In this document: positions 1 through 27,471 of the stretch, piece after piece
Position numbering within the stretch: the first letter of the stretch is position 1
Layout of the letters: the number at the start of each line of letters is the position of its first letter
DNA from: a virus
Virus record (IMG/VR): IMGVR_UViG_3300026518_000043
Location: 1 to 30,041 of that record
Strand: one strand, 5' to 3'
DNA: 30,041 bases
Translations under genes and position numbers: made by a program
Notes under the pieces: model-generated
Told to the model about the DNA's origin: nothing
The model's database searches: none
Seen by the model: the letters and a program-made list of their open reading frames with translations, nothing else

Positions 1-2994
1 AGCATCCCGACCAACGGAAAATAAGCCGAAACCACCAAACCTGTCAACTCCAAGCGTAACCCAGTCCATTGTTGTGTTGTTCTTTCTGTTAGGAGCTATG
101 CCGCCATAGCGCACTTCATCGCTAAGACGTGTGCTAAGAATGCCAAGCAATGTGGAAATAATAAAAGCATTGGTGGCTGCAATGCGCTCTGTTTTGGAGG
201 CGTCTTTGCCAAGCATCTTCTTAATCATTCGAGGCAGCACAGTGTTGCCAAACTGTGTTGGGAATGAGCGCAGCGTAACAAACAGCTTAAATCTAGGATT
301 ACTGTGATATAGCGGTAGCTGGCTTGCCCTTGGCATGATTACACTATCAAGCACAAACTTAAGCTGCCCCTTCTGAATGTATGCTTCATATAGCGGGTCA
401 TCGCGCTTCATGCCGTTCTTAAGCCATAGAAGCCCTTTCTCATAAGGAATGCCAAGCTCTGCCAAGTCCTTCTTGTAAAGCTCAACATTCCCACGATTGG
501 CTGCAATGTCTTTAAGATGCCCCTTAATCATTGCTCTGGCAGTTTCATTCGCCCCTATCATCATGGCTCTAGTCCATTGGTGAAGGAAGTTCAGCTTAAA
601 GAACTTGTTGTCAATCTTGTGCATGTAATTGAACACGCGATTCTCACTAAGCTGAGATTGTAAATCCATAATGGCGCTATCAATGCCAAGCCCTAGTTCG
701 TCAATACTTCTCTCTGCCTCATGCTTCGGAATCTTCTTAAATCCAACAGCTCTAGGCACTGAATGGGTCATATTGCGAATGATTCCTTTGAATCCATGCA
801 GTGAAGACGTTGGCCTAGCTGCAGCGCGAAGCATCCAAGTTGCTGGCTCTGAAATAGAGCTTAATGTAGCCAACGGAAGGGTGAGCACATGAATGGTGGG
901 AACGGCCAGTCTGTTCGCAGCAAAGGCAACACGCCCACTTGCTGTATCAGACAATGGCTTATACTTCATAAGCAATGCATCAGCTAGCCCATAAATAGCA
1001 TCATATTCATTCTGTGTGATGCCTCCGGTGTCAGGAACAACCTTGTTCATATCCCTTAGCTGTTCCTTCAAGGAGGTCACTGTTACGTCATCGCCTTCCT
1101 TGGCTGCTCTAGCAATAGCATCCCTTAGCTGCGCCTTTTGTGCCTTGAGGTCTCTTCTATTGCTGTCAACGGAGAGCTTACGCTCAATATGCAGCACCTT
1201 GTTTTCCATGCGCTTAATTTCTGCCTTATCCCTAGCTCTATGGGCTGCGTCAAGTCGAGACTTCGCTTTACTCCACAATTCAAATAGCTGAGGCATTTCA
1301 GCAGCTCTGCGCTTCTGCAGGTCAATCTCACGCACTATAGCGTTCAGCTTTTCATTGTTCGCTCCAAAGCGCCTAGCATATTCTGCATACTGAATAGAGC
1401 GACGCATGTATGTGTGAAGCGTGTCGTAAATGTTTGTGTCATCCTTCAAGAATGGAGCAAGAGCGCTGTCAGGAACTTTTACCCTGCGGCTATTTAAGGA
1501 GCCGTGTTCACGCACCTTCCTACCGTCCAGCTCTCTGGCTAAATCCGTGTCAGCATCAACAAGAATGCCATCGCGCTTCAAAATACTGTCATATAATGCC
1601 CGCGCTTCTTCTGGTGTGTGTCCATACTTAGTGAGCGTGTTCATCCACTCCTGACGTATTTCAGGGTGCTTCATGGCGGCTACGTCATACACGCGAGGAA
1701 ACCAATTCTTAACCTTGTTCTTTATGAGGCCCCTGTTGTGTAAATAGTCTCCAAACTCATTCAGCAGCTTAATAAAAGGAGCGCTTTCAGCATCGACAAT
1801 GCCGTTCCTCACCTTATGCTGAATGCTTACGCTCACCTCTTCCGGCATCGTTTTGCCAATCAAATGACGTTTAAGCAATGGCTCAACAATTTCATTCAAT
1901 TTGTTTATGTATTTGCCTGTTGCCAGCATAACGCCCTGCTCATAGCTATGCACCTTAGAGCCCACTGCTGCGCCTTCACCCGTGTAGTCTCCTGCAAGTG
2001 TGGCAAGCTTCCTCGCTGCTGGCACGCCTATGTTGGCAACCTTTGTGACTGCCTTGCCACCTATGGTTGTTCCAATATCCTTGGCGCCATCAACAGCCTT
2101 TGAAGCAATGTCTTTTAGCTTTCCGCCAGTGATTCTATCAGCAGCATTAAACGTGGCTTTTGTGGCTTGTACAGGCGCCTTGGCTACCACCTTCGCACCA
2201 GTCTCCAGAGCATTGGCCGTAGCAGAGATTGGCTTCATGCCAACATCCACAACCTTCCCTACATGCTCAAGACCTTTTCCTGTGACGTATTTAACCGTCT
2301 CGGGGACAAGACTGCCAAGCCTGTCTAATGTCATAGCAATGCGAACGCTTCCCTTTGTAGCTCCAGCAACAGGCGTTCCTGCAAACTGTGAAGCAATATG
2401 CCCAACGTCCAATATCTGCCTTTCCGTATCATCCTTCGTTAAGGCAAATGCCTCATTGTAGTTCTGCTCGATAATATCCTGATCTGTCTCGCCAGCCATA
2501 TCCTGAATGTATCTATCAGCAGCATCTTTTAGCATGAAGTCCTTATCGGCTAACACCTTGCCTATAAGCGCAGCAATCTCTGCTGGCGTCCCAAAAGCCG
2601 TACGAATGCCAGCCATAAGATTGAAGGGGATGCCAAATGGATGATAGATGGTGTCGCCTTGAGCGTTTGTGTCGTTGCTTGAAGGCTGTTGTTGAGCCTT
2701 ATTGAGAAAAGAGTCCAGCTCTGCCTCGCTCATATTAGCTATTTCTTCATCGGAGGGAATGGCGTTTTGAGGAGCTTTGGGTTGACTTGAAGGGGTTGGT
2801 AAGGGAGCTGCCTCCAAAGGCTGTTCTTGAGGATTCTGTGGCTCTACAGGCAACGCCTGTGCGGCTAATTGCTGATTGTCAGGAATAGCTGGAAGCGGAG
2901 CAGTTTGTGGCGGCTGAGCAAGCTGGAGAAACCTATCCAGCTCAGCTTCGCTCATGCCCGCTATCTGCTCATCTGTCGGAATGTTATTGGACAT
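1..2994 (-). CDS. Large internal virion / DNA-ejection protein (3' end outside window)
   Basis: Open from the ATG at 2994 to the window edge: 998 codons with no stop, so the C-terminus is missing. The N-terminal ~110 residues are Pro/Gln-rich and carry a duplicated helix motif (IPTDEQIAGMSEAELDRFL near residue 5, IPSDEEIANMSEAELDSFL near residue 79). The rest is mostly helical. It includes a charged, coiled-coil-like stretch at roughly residues 550-640 and segments with Trp/Arg helices (FLHQWTRAMMIGANETAR) of the kind seen in large polyvalent phage proteins. It overlaps the upstream gene by 11 bp and is last in the tail/ejection cluster, the usual place for big internal core proteins that enter the cell with the DNA. 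I see no lysozyme or polymerase motif in the visible part. The role is inferred from position and composition. Confidence 0.6.
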   Translation of the reverse strand, partial: MSNNIPTDEQIAGMSEAELDRFLQLAQPPQTAPLPAIPDNQQLAAQALPVEPQNPQEQPLEAAPLPTPSSQPKAPQNAIPSDEEIANMSEAELDSFLNKAQQQPSSNDTNAQGDTIYHPFGIPFNLMAGIRTAFGTPAEIAALIGKVLADKDFMLKDAADRYIQDMAGETDQDIIEQNYNEAFALTKDDTERQILDVGHIASQFAGTPVAGATKGSVRIAMTLDRLGSLVPETVKYVTGKGLEHVGKVVDVGMKPISATANALETGAKVVAKAPVQATKATFNAADRITGGKLKDIASKAVDGAKDIGTTIGGKAVTKVANIGVPAARKLATLAGDYTGEGAAVGSKVHSYEQGVMLATGKYINKLNEIVEPLLKRHLIGKTMPEEVSVSIQHKVRNGIVDAESAPFIKLLNEFGDYLHNRGLIKNKVKNWFPRVYDVAAMKHPEIRQEWMNTLTKYGHTPEEARALYDSILKRDGILVDADTDLARELDGRKVREHGSLNSRRVKVPDSALAPFLKDDTNIYDTLHTYMRRSIQYAEYARRFGANNEKLNAIVREIDLQKRRAAEMPQLFELWSKAKSRLDAAHRARDKAEIKRMENKVLHIERKLSVDSNRRDLKAQKAQLRDAIARAAKEGDDVTVTSLKEQLRDMNKVVPDTGGITQNEYDAIYGLADALLMKYKPLSDTASGRVAFAANRLAVPTIHVLTLPLATLSSISEPATWMLRAAARPTSSLHGFKGIIRNMTHSVPRAVGFKKIPKHEAERSIDELGLGIDSAIMDLQSQLSENRVFNYMHKIDNKFFKLNFLHQWTRAMMIGANETARAMIKGHLKDIAANRGNVELYKKDLAELGIPYEKGLLWLKNGMKRDDPLYEAYIQKGQLKFVLDSVIMPRASQLPLYHSNPRFKLFVTLRSFPTQFGNTVLPRMIKKMLGKDASKTERIAATNAFIISTLLGILSTRLSDEVRYGGIAPNRKNNTTMDWVTLGVDRFGGFGLFSVGRDA

Positions 2995-3886
2995 TCTGCT
3001 GTGCTCTTAATTGAGCTGCAAGCTGAGCCGCAGCAGCACGCTTCTGGGCAACCGCATCTTGATACGCCTGCTGTTTAACGTCTGCAGGGTTATAGCTTGT
3101 CTGGTCGTGTGCCGCAGCTTGCAATGCCTCTTCATACGGAACCTGTACGCCTTGTGCGGCAGCCATCTGCTGAATTGTCTTAGCTCTTACTGCAAGCTCT
3201 GCTGTCTTTGAGGCGATTGCTGCATTAACATCATTGTCACTCACTCCAAAAAATGGGACGTCATTGCTTGGTATGCCAAGCTCGTCAGCATGGTCTTGCA
3301 CATAGGATTGCGTAAGCGCTGTCTCTGCCTTCGTTGATCTGGCGTCAATGGCTTTAACTGTTGGCCTCTTCGCTTTTGGTGCTCTCGGAGAAAGCCCTTT
3401 TGGTAGATGTGAAACAACGCTTCCGTCATCTCCTATACCAACATATGTGCCGCTATTTTCATCATACATCCATGAAGAAACATGGGGCTTCTTCACTTTG
3501 AATGTGCTCACATATGTTTTGAACTCGCTGGCATCCATGTTCCCAAGCTCTTCATCTGTGAAGTCAGCCTGCAATCCAAGCTTGCTAAGCATGCTATGCC
3601 GAAGCTTGCCACGAGCCCTTGCAGCCCTTGCCTTCCTTTCGATTTGAAGCTTCTCTTTCTTTGGCTTGCGCTTCGCGGCTTCAATGGCAAGCCTGTTCTT
3701 TTCAAGAAGCTGCTTGTTAAGCGCATCCTGCTGTGCAAGCGCAGCTTCATGCTCAGCCTGCTGTTTTTGTTGCTGTTGGAGCTGATACATTCCTTGAACA
3801 GCCTGCAAGTCTTGCAGCTTCTTCTGTTCAAGTTGCGCCTGATAGCCGTCAATAGCGCCTAAGAGCGGCTGGAGGTCGCTAGGCAT
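2984..3886 (-). CDS. Gln-rich coiled-coil virion protein (presumed ejection protein)
   Basis: 300 residues. Residues 15-110 are Gln/Lys/Glu/Ala-rich and should form a long coiled coil. The middle has a short motif (FTDEELGNMDASEF) resembling the duplicated motif of the downstream large protein. The C-terminus again is Ala/Gln-rich helix. The start ATG shares its A with the stop of the upstream gene (TAATG), so translation is probably coupled. No enzyme motif was found. Position between other Ala/Gly/Gln-rich proteins and the large protein suggests an internal virion component ejected with the DNA, as P22 gp7/gp16/gp20 are. That analogy rests on order and composition, not on recognisable sequence similarity. 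Confidence 0.5.
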   Translation of the reverse strand: MPSDLQPLLGAIDGYQAQLEQKKLQDLQAVQGMYQLQQQQKQQAEHEAALAQQDALNKQLLEKNRLAIEAAKRKPKKEKLQIERKARAARARGKLRHSMLSKLGLQADFTDEELGNMDASEFKTYVSTFKVKKPHVSSWMYDENSGTYVGIGDDGSVVSHLPKGLSPRAPKAKRPTVKAIDARSTKAETALTQSYVQDHADELGIPSNDVPFFGVSDNDVNAAIASKTAELAVRAKTIQQMAAAQGVQVPYEEALQAAAHDQTSYNPADVKQQAYQDAVAQKRAAAAQLAAQLRAQQNVQ

Positions 3887-7762: not shown

Positions 7763-8821
7763 TTATGCCAACCCTAACAAAAGAGCTGAAGAGTTTTCAG
7801 CGCGTGCTTCCAGCGTAACCGCAGATTCAATCATGAACCTGCGACTGGAGCCCAGACGGGCAAGCTCTTCTGCGCGAACAGGGCGCAGATAAGCGGCTGC
7901 AAACTGACCGCTCTCCAAGACAGCAAGAGAGCCTGCAGGCATCCAGCGATTGGTCTTAACCGCATGGCGACCGAAGTCACTCTCATAAATGTCGATGGAG
8001 TTTGTGAGTGCCTGCGCGTCAGCAGTCAGGCGGCGGATGTTAGAAGCGAAGCCAGAGATAGCACGTTTCTGCTTTGTCGGAGCATGAACGGTGTCTGGAG
8101 AACCGCCCTGATTGTAGCATGCCTCAAAAGCATCATTGATGGTGGTCTCTGACAATGCTGCCGGAACAGCATATACAGCATACAGGACTGTAGCTGCCGG
8201 AACAACGTCCCAAGCTGCAACAGTGAGGGTATTGGTAGCAACGCCAGTTACAAGGCGATACTGACCGCCACCAACCTGATCTGCGCCAGTGGCGTCTTTC
8301 GGCAGGATGTACACGTAAGACTGATTGGCAACAGCACCATGACCAGCAGCTACGGTGATTGTGGTAGCGGTGGCTGCAGTTGCAGCACCAGTGTTAGGAG
8401 CAACAGCGTCAGTGCGGTTGGTGTTCAGGAAGTGGAAGATGCCGCCCATCATCTGTGCGGATGGTGAATTACCAACGCTCTTAGAGCCCTGAATGAATGC
8501 GCGCTCAGTGTCGAGGGCGATTTCCTTAGTGGCCTTCTCAAGCTGATAAGCATATTCAGACTTAACGCCTGCTTTCAGAACAGCCTCTTGGTTGTCAGAA
8601 ATCTGACCAGTCTTACGAATGTTCTGAATGTAGTTGCCAACACGAACACGCGGAGTGAGCGTGCCAAAGGTTGCGTCGCTACCTTCAACCTGCGCATTCA
8701 GCGTGGGGGAGGCAAGAGCATCGGTGAGCCACTCATGGTTTGTGCCTGTGGCTTTCTTGGTTTGAATGGATGAAGTCAACGGAGCGTCCGTTGGTGAAAT
8801 CATCGTGATAATCGGAATTAA
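7763..8821 (-). CDS. Major capsid protein, exon 2 (SU10/DUF5309-like)
   Basis: Encodes residues 16-367 of the spliced 367-residue coat protein, starting LIPIITMISPTDAPLTSSIQ. Markers are ISPTDAPL, the HEWLTDAL helix after it, VGNYIQNIRKTGQISD (N-arm / E-loop region), ALDTERAFIQGSK, and a C-terminal MIESAVTLEARAENSSALL. This is the pattern of the SU10-type HK97-fold capsid family. A Thr/Ala/Val-rich beta segment in the middle is probably an inserted domain. An ORF reading would begin at the ATG at 8836, but residues MLIYL are intron sequence. The family N-terminus (MAxLxTYQxVGxxED) is found instead in exon 1 at 9666-9710. The gene follows the scaffold and is ended by a terminator. Confidence 0.85.
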   Translation of the reverse strand, partial: LIPIITMISPTDAPLTSSIQTKKATGTNHEWLTDALASPTLNAQVEGSDATFGTLTPRVRVGNYIQNIRKTGQISDNQEAVLKAGVKSEYAYQLEKATKEIALDTERAFIQGSKSVGNSPSAQMMGGIFHFLNTNRTDAVAPNTGAATAATATTITVAAGHGAVANQSYVYILPKDATGADQVGGGQYRLVTGVATNTLTVAAWDVVPAATVLYAVYAVPAALSETTINDAFEACYNQGGSPDTVHAPTKQKRAISGFASNIRRLTADAQALTNSIDIYESDFGRHAVKTNRWMPAGSLAVLESGQFAAAYLRPVRAEELARLGSSRRFMIESAVTLEARAENSSALLLGLA

Positions 8822-9665
8822 CAAGTATATTAACATGAAGGCTCTTTATCCCTCACTTCTCTGGATTTCGCCAGAGCTTAGACTATATCATCATGCCTTG
8901 CAAAGGCATGCCCCGCACTCGTGTCGCTTTACCGTCTGTTCTAGACTCCATGCGTTAGTCGTTGAACCTTCAACCCATCCCTAGGCTGCTTGGCTGCTGA
9001 TTGCCCAATCCTTATTCTTTTCAAGCATTCACGCTTGCTGTTGCCAGCTACGTTGTAGCGAATAAGGCTCTAAGGGGTTCCCAGCAATTCACGGGGTTTA
9101 TCGAGGACTTAATCCATATCAACTTGATAATTGAACTTAGCGCAATTCTGTTGCTTGGTCAGATATTGAAGATTGTTCAAAACATGTAATCCGCAAACCG
9201 TACGTCCTTGGATTGGATATATATGATCAACTTCATAGCCATCAGGTCTGTTCTCATAAAACATCTTGATGGCTTTTTTATCTGCCCATTTAGGGGTAGC
9301 TCTTTTTCTGGCCTCTCTATATTTACGTGCATATGAAAATGCTTTCTCTTTGTCATTCTCATACACGCGCTTATTGCTTGCCAGCTTCTTCTCTGGGTCT
9401 CTTCTATAGCGCTCTCTACATCGCTTAAGTTGAGGCTCAGGGTTTCGAGCATACCTTTTCCTATCTGCGGCTGCATATTGCTCTGGTTTTTTTGCTCTAT
9501 TGAGCTTGTTCCTTTGCATTACGCATTTCTTGCACATGCTCCTTCGCTTGCCTGTATCCTTGCGAAGGTAGAATTGTTCAACATCTAAATCCTGATTACA
9601 GTGAGAGCATATCATCCATCAACTATGATCTCGGCAATCAGGAAAGTCAATACGTGACTACGTCA
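8822..9665 (-). mobile_element. Group I intron (844 nt) in the major capsid gene
   Basis: Exon 1 ends in U (9666) and the intron ends in G (8822), as group I splicing requires. P1: exon CGAGGAU (9672-9666) pairs perfectly with GUCCUCG (9108-9102), giving the U-G pair at the splice site. P10: AUUAA (9113-9109) pairs with the exon 2 start UUAAU (8821-8817). P7: GACUA (8960-8956) with UAGUC (8885-8881). P3: CCGUG (9094-9090) with CAUGG (8952-8948). P9 is a perfect hairpin at 8876-8859, and an extra perfect hairpin lies at 8910-8892. AAUUGCUGGGAACCCC near 9090 looks like the usual P4/P5 start of phage introns. The endonuclease ORF lies between the splice site and the guide, in the P1 loop. The subgroup (probably IA) is not proved. 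Confidence 0.9.
9109..9615 (-). CDS. Intron-encoded HNH homing endonuclease
   Basis: 168 residues. The N-terminus has a zinc-binding pair (CSHC at 3-6, CKKC near 28-31). A long basic Arg/Lys/Tyr region should bind DNA. The C-terminal HNH core runs VDHIYPIQ, then GLHVLNNLQYLTKQQN and CAKFN. It would cut intronless capsid genes and drive intron homing. The ATG at 9615 lies 50 nt inside the intron. The TAA stop (9111-9109) forms part of the P10 strand, and the guide sequence starts at the next base, so coding and ribozyme sequence abut and partly overlap. The family is certain from motifs; the cleavage site is inferred to be at the exon junction. Confidence 0.85.
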   Translation of the reverse strand: MICSHCNQDLDVEQFYLRKDTGKRRSMCKKCVMQRNKLNRAKKPEQYAAADRKRYARNPEPQLKRCRERYRRDPEKKLASNKRVYENDKEKAFSYARKYREARKRATPKWADKKAIKMFYENRPDGYEVDHIYPIQGRTVCGLHVLNNLQYLTKQQNCAKFNYQVDMD

Positions 9666-9710
9666 ATCCTCGCGGTTGCCTACCGACTGATATGTTTGCA
9701 ATACTGCCAT
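9666..9710 (-). CDS. Major capsid protein, exon 1 (15 codons)
   Basis: Reads MAVLQTYQSVGNRED from the ATG at 9710, with the SD AAGGAG 7 nt upstream, then meets TGA at 9665 in the unspliced RNA. Joined to exon 2 it gives ...GNRED-LIPIITMISPTDAPL. This is the N-terminal layout of SU10-type coat proteins, where the exon-1 motif runs straight into the ISPTDAP-type motif. Both splice sites are fixed by P1 and P10 pairing. Without splicing only a 15-residue peptide would be made. Confidence 0.88.
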
Positions 9711-21147: not shown

Positions 21148-21645
21148 ATGGTTACTCAAGCCTTGTTGAAAGAGCTTTTTATTTACAATCCAGACACAGG
21201 GCTATTCATCAGGCGCAAACAGGTCCGTGGCCCCAATGGAAGAATAGGGAACATTGCTGGACATAAAGATAAGAGTAATGGCTATGTTAAGATTGGTGTT
21301 AATGGAAAATCCTACAAAGCCCATCGCCTTGTATGGCTGTATATGTATGGCAAATTCCCAAGTAACCAATTAGACCATATAAATCACAATCGTTCTGATA
21401 ATAGGCTCTCTAATCTAAGAGAGGTTTCAATGGCCGAAAACTTAAAAAATAAAAAGTTTTATAGCTGTTCAAAACATGGCTTTAATGGCGTTATTTTTCA
21501 ACCAACACGGAATACATGGTATGCGCGCATATCTGTAAACGGCAAACTAATTCACATAGGAAGGTATCGAACATTTTATGCCGCATGTTATGCAGGACAT
21601 TCAGCCAATATTAAATATGGCTTTCATCAAAATCACGGCAAATAG
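21148..21645 (+). CDS. HNH homing endonuclease with AP2 domain (copy 1)
   Basis: 165 residues. HNH core: LDHINHNRSDNRLSNLREV (about 75-93), preceded by the YKAHRLVWLYMYGKFP strand-helix. An AP2-like DNA-binding domain follows: GFNGVIF, then WYARISVNGKLIHIGRYRTF and ANIKYGFHQNHGK. It is a free-standing mobile endonuclease inserted between early genes with its own SD AAAGGAGAAGG. A second, related copy is at 24515-25030. The stop TAG overlaps the SD of the next gene. Confidence 0.85.
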   Translation: MVTQALLKELFIYNPDTGLFIRRKQVRGPNGRIGNIAGHKDKSNGYVKIGVNGKSYKAHRLVWLYMYGKFPSNQLDHINHNRSDNRLSNLREVSMAENLKNKKFYSCSKHGFNGVIFQPTRNTWYARISVNGKLIHIGRYRTFYAACYAGHSANIKYGFHQNHGK

Positions 21646-21656
21646 GAGGAGTGGAA

Positions 21657-21872
21657 ATGGTTAGATTTCGCGGAATTATTGAAGGGAATAGAGGCGAGAC
21701 ACCACGGCTAGGAACAAAAGCATCGGGCTTCTATGCGCGTATTGATGGCTGGAATAAAGGCATCACAGTGAGGGCATGGTATGACGAAGCTACGGGTGAG
21801 GATATGTTTGAGGTGCATCTCACGGGAGGCAGCAATAATCCATCAGCTATTGATTGCTTGGGAGAATGGTGA
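21657..21872 (+). CDS. 71-residue uncharacterised protein
   Basis: Starts MVRFRGIIEGNRGETPRLGT at the ATG at 21657. The GTG at 21651 abuts the SD and is rejected. Predicted all-beta with GFYARIDGWNKGITVRAWYD and MFEVHLTGGSN. It overlaps the helicase start by one base (TGATG), so it is coupled to it. Function unknown. Confidence 0.55.
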   Translation: MVRFRGIIEGNRGETPRLGTKASGFYARIDGWNKGITVRAWYDEATGEDMFEVHLTGGSNNPSAIDCLGEW

Positions 21873-23065
21873 TGCGTTCCATTGAGATTGCTGTTATAGG
21901 TACGGCTCTCTCTGACCCGCAGCTCATTCAAACAACAGCGCTTGAGCCTGAACAGTTTGAAGATGTGCTGCTAGGGAGCATGTGGAAAGCAATGAAGGAG
22001 GGGGCGCATGATATTTATGCGCTTGCCTCTTCTTTCCCTGAGCACGATGCGTTGCTTGGCGAGCTGTATGGAGCATCCAGCCCCTCCATGTTTAGCAAAC
22101 ATGTGAAGAAGCTTCAAGAAAGCTCCAAAAAACGCTTCTTCAAGGCTGCGCTATGCAATGCCTTGGAAGAGATTGAAAAAGGCGCTGACGTTGATGTTAT
22201 AGCGTCTAATGTACAGGCAGCAGCATTAAAAGGAGAAGCTAGTGATAATTACAAAAGCATACGTGACATTGCAGTGGATGTTTACAATGACCTATCGAAT
22301 CGTGGCGGTGACGCTAGCGACCGCTACATACTTAGCGGTTACAGCAGTCTTGATAATGTTACAAATGGTATTCCACGCGGTGAGCTTAGCGTTATCGCGG
22401 CTAGAGCAGGTAGGGGAAAGTCTGCGTTCCTCTTGAACATTCTTCGTAACATATCTGAGGATCATGTATGCCTCTTAAACACGCTTGAAATGTCTAGCCT
22501 ATCAATGGGCTATAGAATGTATGCAAGCGAAGCCTCGGTGGATTTACGGCTTTTGAATGCTAGGAAGATTCAGAGTGAGGAAGGCTGGCGTAAGCTTGCC
22601 GGAGCATCAGGAGCAATAGCAAGGTTGAAGCTGTTTATTGATGACAATCCACGCATGAACATTAAACAAATATGCACAGCAGCTAGACGCTTTCATATTA
22701 AACAGCCGATTGATCTGCTTGCAGTGGACTACATTGGTCTGATACAATCAGACGGGAGAAGGAAACCACGGCATGAAGTTATTGCTGAAATGACACGTGA
22801 AATGAAGCTGCTTGCTGGTGAATTGAATATAGCTGTCATTATGCTGTGTCAGCTAAACAGGGATGCAGAAGGGAGTAAGCCAACACTCGCACATTTAAGG
22901 GAGAGCGGAGCCATTGAGTAGGATGCTGCGTTGGTGCTGTTCCCTCATAGGGATGATGAGAGTGCAAGCGTCATCATTGCAAAGAACAGGGGCGGCCCTA
23001 CAGGAGAAGTTCCAATGTATTGGGATGGAAGCACAGCCTATTTCAAAGAAGTGCCAAAGTTTTAA
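21872..23065 (+). CDS. DnaB-like replicative helicase, interrupted by one in-frame UAG
   Basis: The reading frame has 397 codons including one TAG at 22919-22921 (codon 350). N-terminal domain: VIGTALSDPQLIQ. RecA core: Walker A ARAGRGKSA (177-185), LLNTLEMSS, Walker B DLLAVDY (281-287), MLCQLNRDAEGSKPTLAHLR. The frame reads ESGAIE-stop-DAALVLFPHR, then ASVIIAKNRGGPTGEVPMYW and ends at TAA 23063. In DnaB proteins the stop position is normally Gln, and the downstream part holds the H4/H5 motifs and arginine finger, so a 349-residue product should be inactive. Start ATG at 21872 (SD GGGAGA, TGATG overlap). Suppression, recoding, mutation or sequence error could explain it. Confidence 0.8.
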
Positions 23066-24438: not shown

Positions 24439-24522
24439 GTGGAAGGGAAAACAGAATGGGATGAAGCAGACGAACAGAATGACGAGCGCTGGCTAGAAGA
24501 AAAGGAGAAGGAAAATGGCTGA
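24439..24522 (+). CDS. 27-residue acidic ORF after the RNA island
   Basis: GTG start with a strong SD (AAGGAGGAAG). The peptide MEGKTEWDEADEQNDERWLE ends in a Glu/Lys-rich tail whose codons contain the SD of the endonuclease. It overlaps the endonuclease start by 8 bp. It could be a leader peptide coupling translation, or simply a small gene. Weakly supported by SD and position only. Confidence 0.35.
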   Translation: MEGKTEWDEADEQNDERWLEEKEKENG

Positions 24523-25030
24523 TGTTTACAAGAAAGGAATGCCATTAACTCAATCAAGGCTTAAAGAAGTTCTCGACTACAATAAAAATACAGGTGAGTT
24601 TAGATGGAAGGTTGCTCGCGGATGTAAACAAAAAGGCTCTATTGCAGGTCACAATGAGGCTGGCGCCTATGTGGTAATTAGAATTGACAATATTAAATAC
24701 AAAGGTCACAGGCTTGCTTGGCTTTATATGAACGGAGAGCTTCCTGACTGCGATATTGACCACGTAAACCATAATCGGTATGACAATAGAATTGAAAATC
24801 TACGTACTGTAACTAGAGCGCTAAATAATAAAAATCGCCCCAAGAGCCCAGATAATAAAAGCGGCACAACAGGCGTTTGTTTTCATAAAACAATAGGTAA
24901 ATGGCAATCTTTTATTAGAGTGAATGGAGTGCAAAAATATCTAGGTGTATATATAACATTGCTTGCAGCGGAAACCGCTCGCCATGTTGCAAATATAAAA
25001 TATGGATTCCATAAAAATCATGGAAAGTAA
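24515..25030 (+). CDS. HNH homing endonuclease with AP2 domain (copy 2)
   Basis: 171 residues, paralogous to the 21148-21645 protein. LKEVLDYNKNTGEFRWK opens the domain, then YKGHRLAWLYMNGELPDCD, HNH core IDHVNHNRYDNRIENLRTV, AP2-like GTTGVCF, then WQSFIRVNGVQKYLGVYITL, and the same ANIKYGFHKNHGK ending. SD AAAAGGAGAAGG. It sits immediately downstream of the structured RNA island. It is free-standing, with no interrupted gene around it that I can see. Confidence 0.85.
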   Translation: MADVYKKGMPLTQSRLKEVLDYNKNTGEFRWKVARGCKQKGSIAGHNEAGAYVVIRIDNIKYKGHRLAWLYMNGELPDCDIDHVNHNRYDNRIENLRTVTRALNNKNRPKSPDNKSGTTGVCFHKTIGKWQSFIRVNGVQKYLGVYITLLAAETARHVANIKYGFHKNHGK

Positions 25031-26892: not shown

Positions 26893-27086
26893 AGTGCCTT
26901 CAATGTAATGGAACAGGCTTTGTTTATACGCCGCAGCATAAGGAAATACAATGCAATAATTGTCTAGGTCTTGGAGAATACAAGGTGATAGAGGTTGCTG
27001 TCGGCTTTAATGAGGCAAGGGTTGTTGGCAAGAAGGGGCTCTCAATGCCGATTGAAAGCGTTAGCGACCTATATAGACGTGTCTAA
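26889..27086 (+). CDS. DnaJ-type zinc-finger mini-protein
   Basis: 65 residues from the ATG at 26889, coupled to the nuclease stop (ATGA). Two CxxCxGxG-like units, CLQCNGTG and CNNCLGLG, make half of a DnaJ central zinc domain. The rest is a short beta tail. It may be a zinc-binding adaptor or chaperone-like factor. The coding region beyond the knuckles gives no clue. Confidence 0.6.
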   Translation: MKCLQCNGTGFVYTPQHKEIQCNNCLGLGEYKVIEVAVGFNEARVVGKKGLSMPIESVSDLYRRV

Positions 27087-27471
27087 GCGTAATATACCAC
27101 GACCGCGCAATGGCGGTAGCTGGTCGGAAAGCGAATACTGGGCTGCCGTCCGTTCTGCCTTGCGTCACAAGTTTCGCTATTGGAAGCCTATGCAGCAGAA
27201 GAAGCTGGAGGCAAGAAGAAAAAGCCAAAGTGACAACAAGCGATTGAAGTGGGAATATCAATGCGCCGATTGCAAGGGATGGTATGCAGGGAAGGAAGTT
27301 CAAATAGACCACATCGTTGAATGCGGCAGCTTAAAATGTGCTGATGATTTAGCAGGGTTCCTAGAGAGGCTTACACCAGAAGACCCTGACGCGTTTCAAG
27401 TGCTGTGTAAGCCATGCCATCATAAACGAACGCAAGCTTACAGAGCAAGGCTTAGGGCATCTGAAAAATAA
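27079..27471 (+). CDS. HNH endonuclease-family protein with zinc cysteines
   Basis: 130 residues from the GTG at 27079, which overlaps the previous stop. There is no ATG nearby and the SD is weak. YQCADCKGWYAGKEVQIDHI (about residues 67-86) holds the first Cys pair and the HNH DHI. The second pair is in FQVLCKPCHHKRTQ. The N-terminal part has SESEYWAAVRSALRHKFRYW. It may be an HNH nuclease acting in replication or packaging. It differs from the AP2-HNH homing enzymes. Confidence 0.65.
   Translation: MSKRNIPRPRNGGSWSESEYWAAVRSALRHKFRYWKPMQQKKLEARRKSQSDNKRLKWEYQCADCKGWYAGKEVQIDHIVECGSLKCADDLAGFLERLTPEDPDAFQVLCKPCHHKRTQAYRARLRASEK

Follow-up and report, generated by a model that had tools for sequence, protein, structure and literature searches.

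A mobile group I intron, carrying a gene for an HNH/endonuclease VII-like homing endonuclease, has very probably invaded the gene for the SU10-type major capsid protein, where it follows codon 15, a reading to which we assign a probability of about 95% from sequence comparison. The gene lies on the minus strand of the window, the 30,041-nucleotide stretch of viral DNA that was analysed here, with exon 1 at 9710-9666, the intron at 9665-8822 (844 nt) and exon 2 at 8821-7763. An RF00028 ribozyme core, the guide pairings with both exons and the intronless relatives agree on this arrangement, which the first-pass annotation had proposed.

The capsid gene is split after codon 15

Exon 1 (9666-9710, minus strand) encodes MAVLQTYQSVGNRED and is preceded by a good ribosome-binding site (AAGGAG-AATAAC-ATG). 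The intron (8822-9665, minus strand) begins with UGACG and ends with CUUG, so that its first codon is an in-frame TGA stop. Exon 2 (7763-8821, minus strand) is entered at TTAATT (8821), which encodes LIPIITMISPTDAPL; it runs from LIPIITMISP and matched PF17236 (SU10_MCP, 3.8e-78) and phrog_1328 (major head protein, 1.8e-81). The PF17236 score of 263 bits against a cut-off of 24.1 places the protein among the SU10-type major capsid proteins. When the two exons were joined, a single open frame of 367 codons was obtained. The immediate halt of exon 1 and the entry of exon 2 at 8821 were thus as first described, and so was the false start expected from naive annotation, since the mechanical ORF call begins with MLIYL at 8836.

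A comparison with intronless relatives had been suggested, and two were found, L002 and L003, with capsid proteins 81% and 73% identical to that of the window, respectively. In both, the N-terminus matches exon 1 and GNREDLIPVITMISP is carried without interruption, and a search for group I introns in the two records found none. Their gene order is the same as in the window, with portal proteins 58-59% identical and neighbouring proteins 35-62% identical. At the junction, L002 reads CGCGAGGAC-TTGATCCCT and L003 reads CGCGAAGAT-TTAATTCCT, with no insertion, and excision of the window intron restores the same reading. Because both relatives carry NREDLIPVITMISP unbroken, the D15|L16 junction is fixed and the intron is 9665-8822. 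Among the loci with an SU10-type capsid match, a biased set drawn from the best 80 of 597, 90 of 92 read straight across the junction; the exceptions are the window itself and L009, which is described below.

Ribozyme core and guide pairings

The covariance-model search proposed in the first-pass annotation returned an RF00028 match at 8859-9141 on the minus strand (74 bits, gathering score 50, E=3e-17, model positions 1-253), and no other RNA family was found in the window by the Rfam search, even at E<=1. The core was 75-82% identical to phage introns by blastn against the phage collection. The predicted pairings comprise P3 (CCCCG at 9092-9096 with CGGGG at 8915-8911), P4 (UGCUGG at 9081-9086 with UCAGCA at 9000-8995), P7 (GACUA at 8956-8960 with UAGUC at 8885-8881), the P8 hairpin at 8892-8910 (CAUGCCUU/AAGGCAUG) and the P9 hairpin at 8859-8876 (CUCUGG/CCAGAG, pairing as written), all on the minus strand. 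P3, P7 and P9 had been named from the letters alone and are present, and the last intron base is the terminal guanosine G8822, again as claimed. Extra P7.1/P7.2 stems between the P7 5′ strand and the P3 3′ strand mark subgroup IA; here 40 nt (8955-8916) lie between these strands.

The internal guide GUCCUCG (9102-9108, minus strand) pairs with exon 1 CGAGGAU (9672-9666) to form a 7-bp P1 with the U-G pair at the splice site, and the adjoining AUUAA (9109-9113, minus strand) pairs with exon 2 UUAAU (8821-8817) to form a 5-bp P10. Both pairings had been claimed and could be written out in full. Nowhere else in the intron is there a 7-bp P1 candidate that ends in U-G. When the 34 nt 5′ of P3 were shuffled, such a P1 arose in 0.9% of cases, and a P1 with an adjoining 5-bp P10 in 0.0135%. 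The resulting P1 loop of ~557 nt is very long, which we counted against the main reading.

The first-pass description of the intron held for the ribozyme, but it overlooked two features, an ORF for an endonuclease within the P1 loop and a second in-frame UUAAU, again after a G, at 8834|8833. The latter raises an alternative 3′ splice site, at which splicing would also, or only, take place after G8834, so that the segment UUAAUAUACUUG (8822-8833, minus strand) would stay in the message and add LIYL to the capsid N-terminal arm. G8834 and G8822 are each followed by UUAAU, neither site shifts the frame, and an equally good P10 can be formed at the decoy. However, P9.0 AAG (8879-8877, minus strand), just before P9, pairs fully with CUU (8825-8823) at the 8822 site and at only two of three positions with CAU at the decoy. 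Moreover, the LIYL residues are absent from L002 and L003, and the lack of this segment in both relatives argues against the decoy. We regard its use as improbable.

Less probable still, and to be given very little weight, is that no splicing takes place and the capsid is translated from the ATG at 8836 (MLIYLLIPII...), exon 1 being a short upstream ORF. The frame is indeed open from 8836, with AAAGAG 6-11 nt upstream, but the strong ribosome-binding site belongs to exon 1, a start at 8836 would lose GNRED, which is conserved across SU10-type capsids, and an intact ribozyme with a matching guide would be left without purpose. That the intron and the capsid gene come from different phages through chimeric assembly is hardly credible. 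The contig, 30 kb long, is from an uncultured virus and has no close relative in the phage collection, but the guide and P10 fit this gene's own exons exactly and the reading frame is kept, which is not expected of a chimera.

The endonuclease ORF lies in the P1 loop

An ORF for an HNH/endonuclease VII-like protein of 168 aa occupies 9109-9615 on the minus strand. Since the guide adjoins P3, this ORF (9615-9109) sits within the P1 loop, and its TAA stop (9111-9109) falls in the P10 guide. The protein matched the unnamed PHROGs family phrog_26577 (4.5e-15) and phrog_1035, endonuclease VII (1.2e-14), and resembled annotated homing/HNH endonucleases by tblastn; searches of Pfam (at 1e-3) and NCBIfam gave no match. 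Its 168 residues include two cysteine pairs near the N-terminus and a DH...N...N stretch at the C-terminus. The ORF is poorer in GC than the exons, at 40% as against 53% for exon 2, as expected for a mobile insert. A clear ribosome-binding site was not found for the ORF, and the endonuclease used as query found no relatives among viral contigs.

Three more HNH endonuclease genes were seen on the plus strand of the window (21148-21645, 24515-25030 and 26995-27471). They are apparently free-standing, because the window has no other group I intron.

Proposed mechanism

On the preferred reading of a mobile intron after codon 15, folding of P1 and P10 would bring CGAGGAU next to UUAAUU. An external guanosine would then start splicing, the 844-nt intron would leave, and one 367-residue capsid protein would be restored. 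The spliced RNA would join GAT|TTAATTCCG, and the capsid peptide would read NREDLIPIITMISPTDAPLTSSIQTK, without LIYL. Ribosomes on exon 1 would stop at the UGA that forms the first intron codon and so be kept out of the ribozyme. In-frame stops at the 5′ splice sites of phage introns are common and are thought to keep ribosomes off the ribozyme, and endonuclease ORFs that overlap intron structure have also been described (PMC3984707).

In capsid alleles that lack the intron, the endonuclease would be expected to cut around the conserved NREDLI codons, and repair would copy the intron in. A ribosome ending at the endonuclease stop would block the P10 guide. Since this stop lies in the guide, we infer, with less weight, that a given RNA should serve either for translation of the endonuclease or for splicing, but not for both at once.

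A recurrent target motif in capsid genes

Another case of a group I intron in an SU10-type capsid gene was found in L009 (IMG/VR 3300028897_000624, 2244-3867), independently of the guide, through its capsid protein. The L009 intron (2310-3000, 691 nt; RF00028 63.5 bits, E=3e-15) splits MSIAYQFVTYNATAGSKEDVLD|LITQVDPEETPLLSR, where the intronless L011 reads NKEDVLDLVTQISPEDTPF. In the alignment its site lies three codons (nine bases) downstream of that of the window, and the target is GGAT^TTAATT in both. Both introns begin with UGACG and end with UUG, and both match RF00028 and carry an HNH-type ORF. They differ in layout: L009 has a compact P1 hairpin at the intron 5′ end with the ORF following P1, while the window ORF is inside the P1 loop. 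The L009 ORF (2336-2962) encodes a different HNH protein (PF01844) and runs into the ribozyme core.

We then scanned for the guide with TTAAGTCYTCGATAAA and obtained 57 stretches, among which 14 contigs (L125, L126, L137, L142, L152, L153, L155, L159, L160, L161, L164, L168, L169 and L183) have a capsid intron at QAED|LI with the target CGAGGAT^TTAATT. These L125-type introns share the guide TTAAGTCCTCGATAAA and this target with the window, but they differ in the capsid family (phrog_1357), in a compact P1 and in having another ORF or none. As the guide was the search string, its identity and that of the target are partly by construction; the location of the non-chance matches in capsid genes is not. 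The remaining 43 of the 57 stretches showed no capsid intron, which is near the number expected by chance from a rough collection size, and they were set aside. Those L125-type introns whose 3′ end could be placed all end in G; in three contigs the script did not find the downstream exon. RF00028 gave no match at the L125-type intron site. In L125, L142, L159 and L164 a P3 of 7 bp, whose sequences differ but compensate, lies beside a P7-like motif, and because this covarying P3 adjoins such a motif, the introns appear to be group I introns of a different kind. The L125 intron carries a DUF6321 ORF. In some contigs the phrog_1357 gene seems to contain several introns, that of L161 being in four pieces, and a further RF00028 match lies just upstream in L161 (76.9 bits) and likewise in L137 (79.2 bits).

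Among the 12 stretches found with the pattern GGATTGACG..TTAAGTCC, L009 and the pair L125/L126 were real; the other nine look like chance and were discarded. The pattern GTCCTCGNTAAAN{6,9}AATTGC gave 14 stretches, with group I introns in one only (L111), which is not in an SU10-type capsid gene. On the phage contig L111, two such introns fall inside 1 kb (1381-1596 and 2032-2269, minus strand).

One short motif in capsid genes is hit repeatedly, and its reuse may reflect either convergence or guide-directed spread. A stronger proposal would be that GGAT^TTAATT, the Asp-Leu-Ile codons, is a recurrent capsid landing motif reached by different kinds of ribozyme through the same guide, and that the guide rather than gene homology directs spread, which would go beyond ordinary homing and proceed by reverse splicing or by exchange of guides. 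We consider this proposal speculative and rather unlikely.

Relation to known capsid-gene introns

Capsid-gene introns are already known. Splicing of the mycobacteriophage LittleE capsid intron was shown by RT-PCR, cDNA sequence and N-terminal sequencing, and a capsid-gene group I intron of lactococcal phage Tuc2009 is cited in the same work (PMC3706429). In LittleE, as in the window, the major capsid gene contains a group I-type intron (~820 bp) that carries an endonuclease ORF, is preceded by a U, ends in G and has an intronless allele in relatives; LittleE differs in its HK97-type capsid gene, in the insertion site and in an opposite-strand ORF with LAGLIDADG similarity (PMC3706429). In Bacillus phage SP-15 (KT624200, annotated join) the major capsid gene is annotated in two pieces, together with an endonuclease ORF, and blastn matched the window core there, but the capsid is T4 gp23-like and the ORF, annotated as Phage_endo_I type, lies 3′ of the matched core; in that stretch no match to RF00028 reached the gathering score. 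The nearest core by coverage in the phage collection was that of the RNA polymerase beta intron of Serratia phage 2050HW (MF285618; 77.8% over 48% of the query), which scores 82.6 bits with RF00028 and has its endonuclease ORF 5′ of the core, as in the window, but interrupts another host gene.

The podovirus record MW202615.1 (L100, 1301-3543) has a PF13252 capsid gene downstream of both a group I core (67.2 bits) and an endonuclease VII-like ORF. Its sequence suggests that two group I introns divide the capsid gene and leave a small exon between them, and the record annotates the capsid from the last exon only.

The first-pass annotation had called an intron in an SU10-type capsid gene unusual. 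This stands insofar as no description of an SU10-type case was found in the open-licence literature, but because the introns of LittleE and Tuc2009 had been published and that of SP-15 annotated before, the claim is weaker than stated. What is new is the occurrence of L009 and L125-type introns at a shared motif.

Other observations on the window

No close relative of the window was found in the phage collection by megablast. The capsid query found no relatives among genome contigs, so there is no host lead.

A DnaB-like helicase frame (21854-23065, plus strand) contains an in-frame TAG (22919-22921) at the conserved Q of GAIEQDA. When the TAG was read through, the frame ran to 23065 and the Pfam DnaB_C score rose from 173.9 to 218.1 bits. 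The TAG may be a point mutation, a sequencing error or a site of readthrough; a global TAG=Q code was rejected, as there was no second convincing gene and no tRNA in the window.

Implications

Annotation pipelines give such phages a false capsid N-terminus and lose exon 1, and the same error is present in the public record MW202615. As the capsid protein is probably more abundant than any other protein of the phage, splicing must be efficient. An intron that lies early in the gene and has a stop as its first codon is well suited to a clean test of the coordination between translation and self-splicing, and the repeated occupation of the motif makes it testable whether the site is chosen by guides or by endonucleases.
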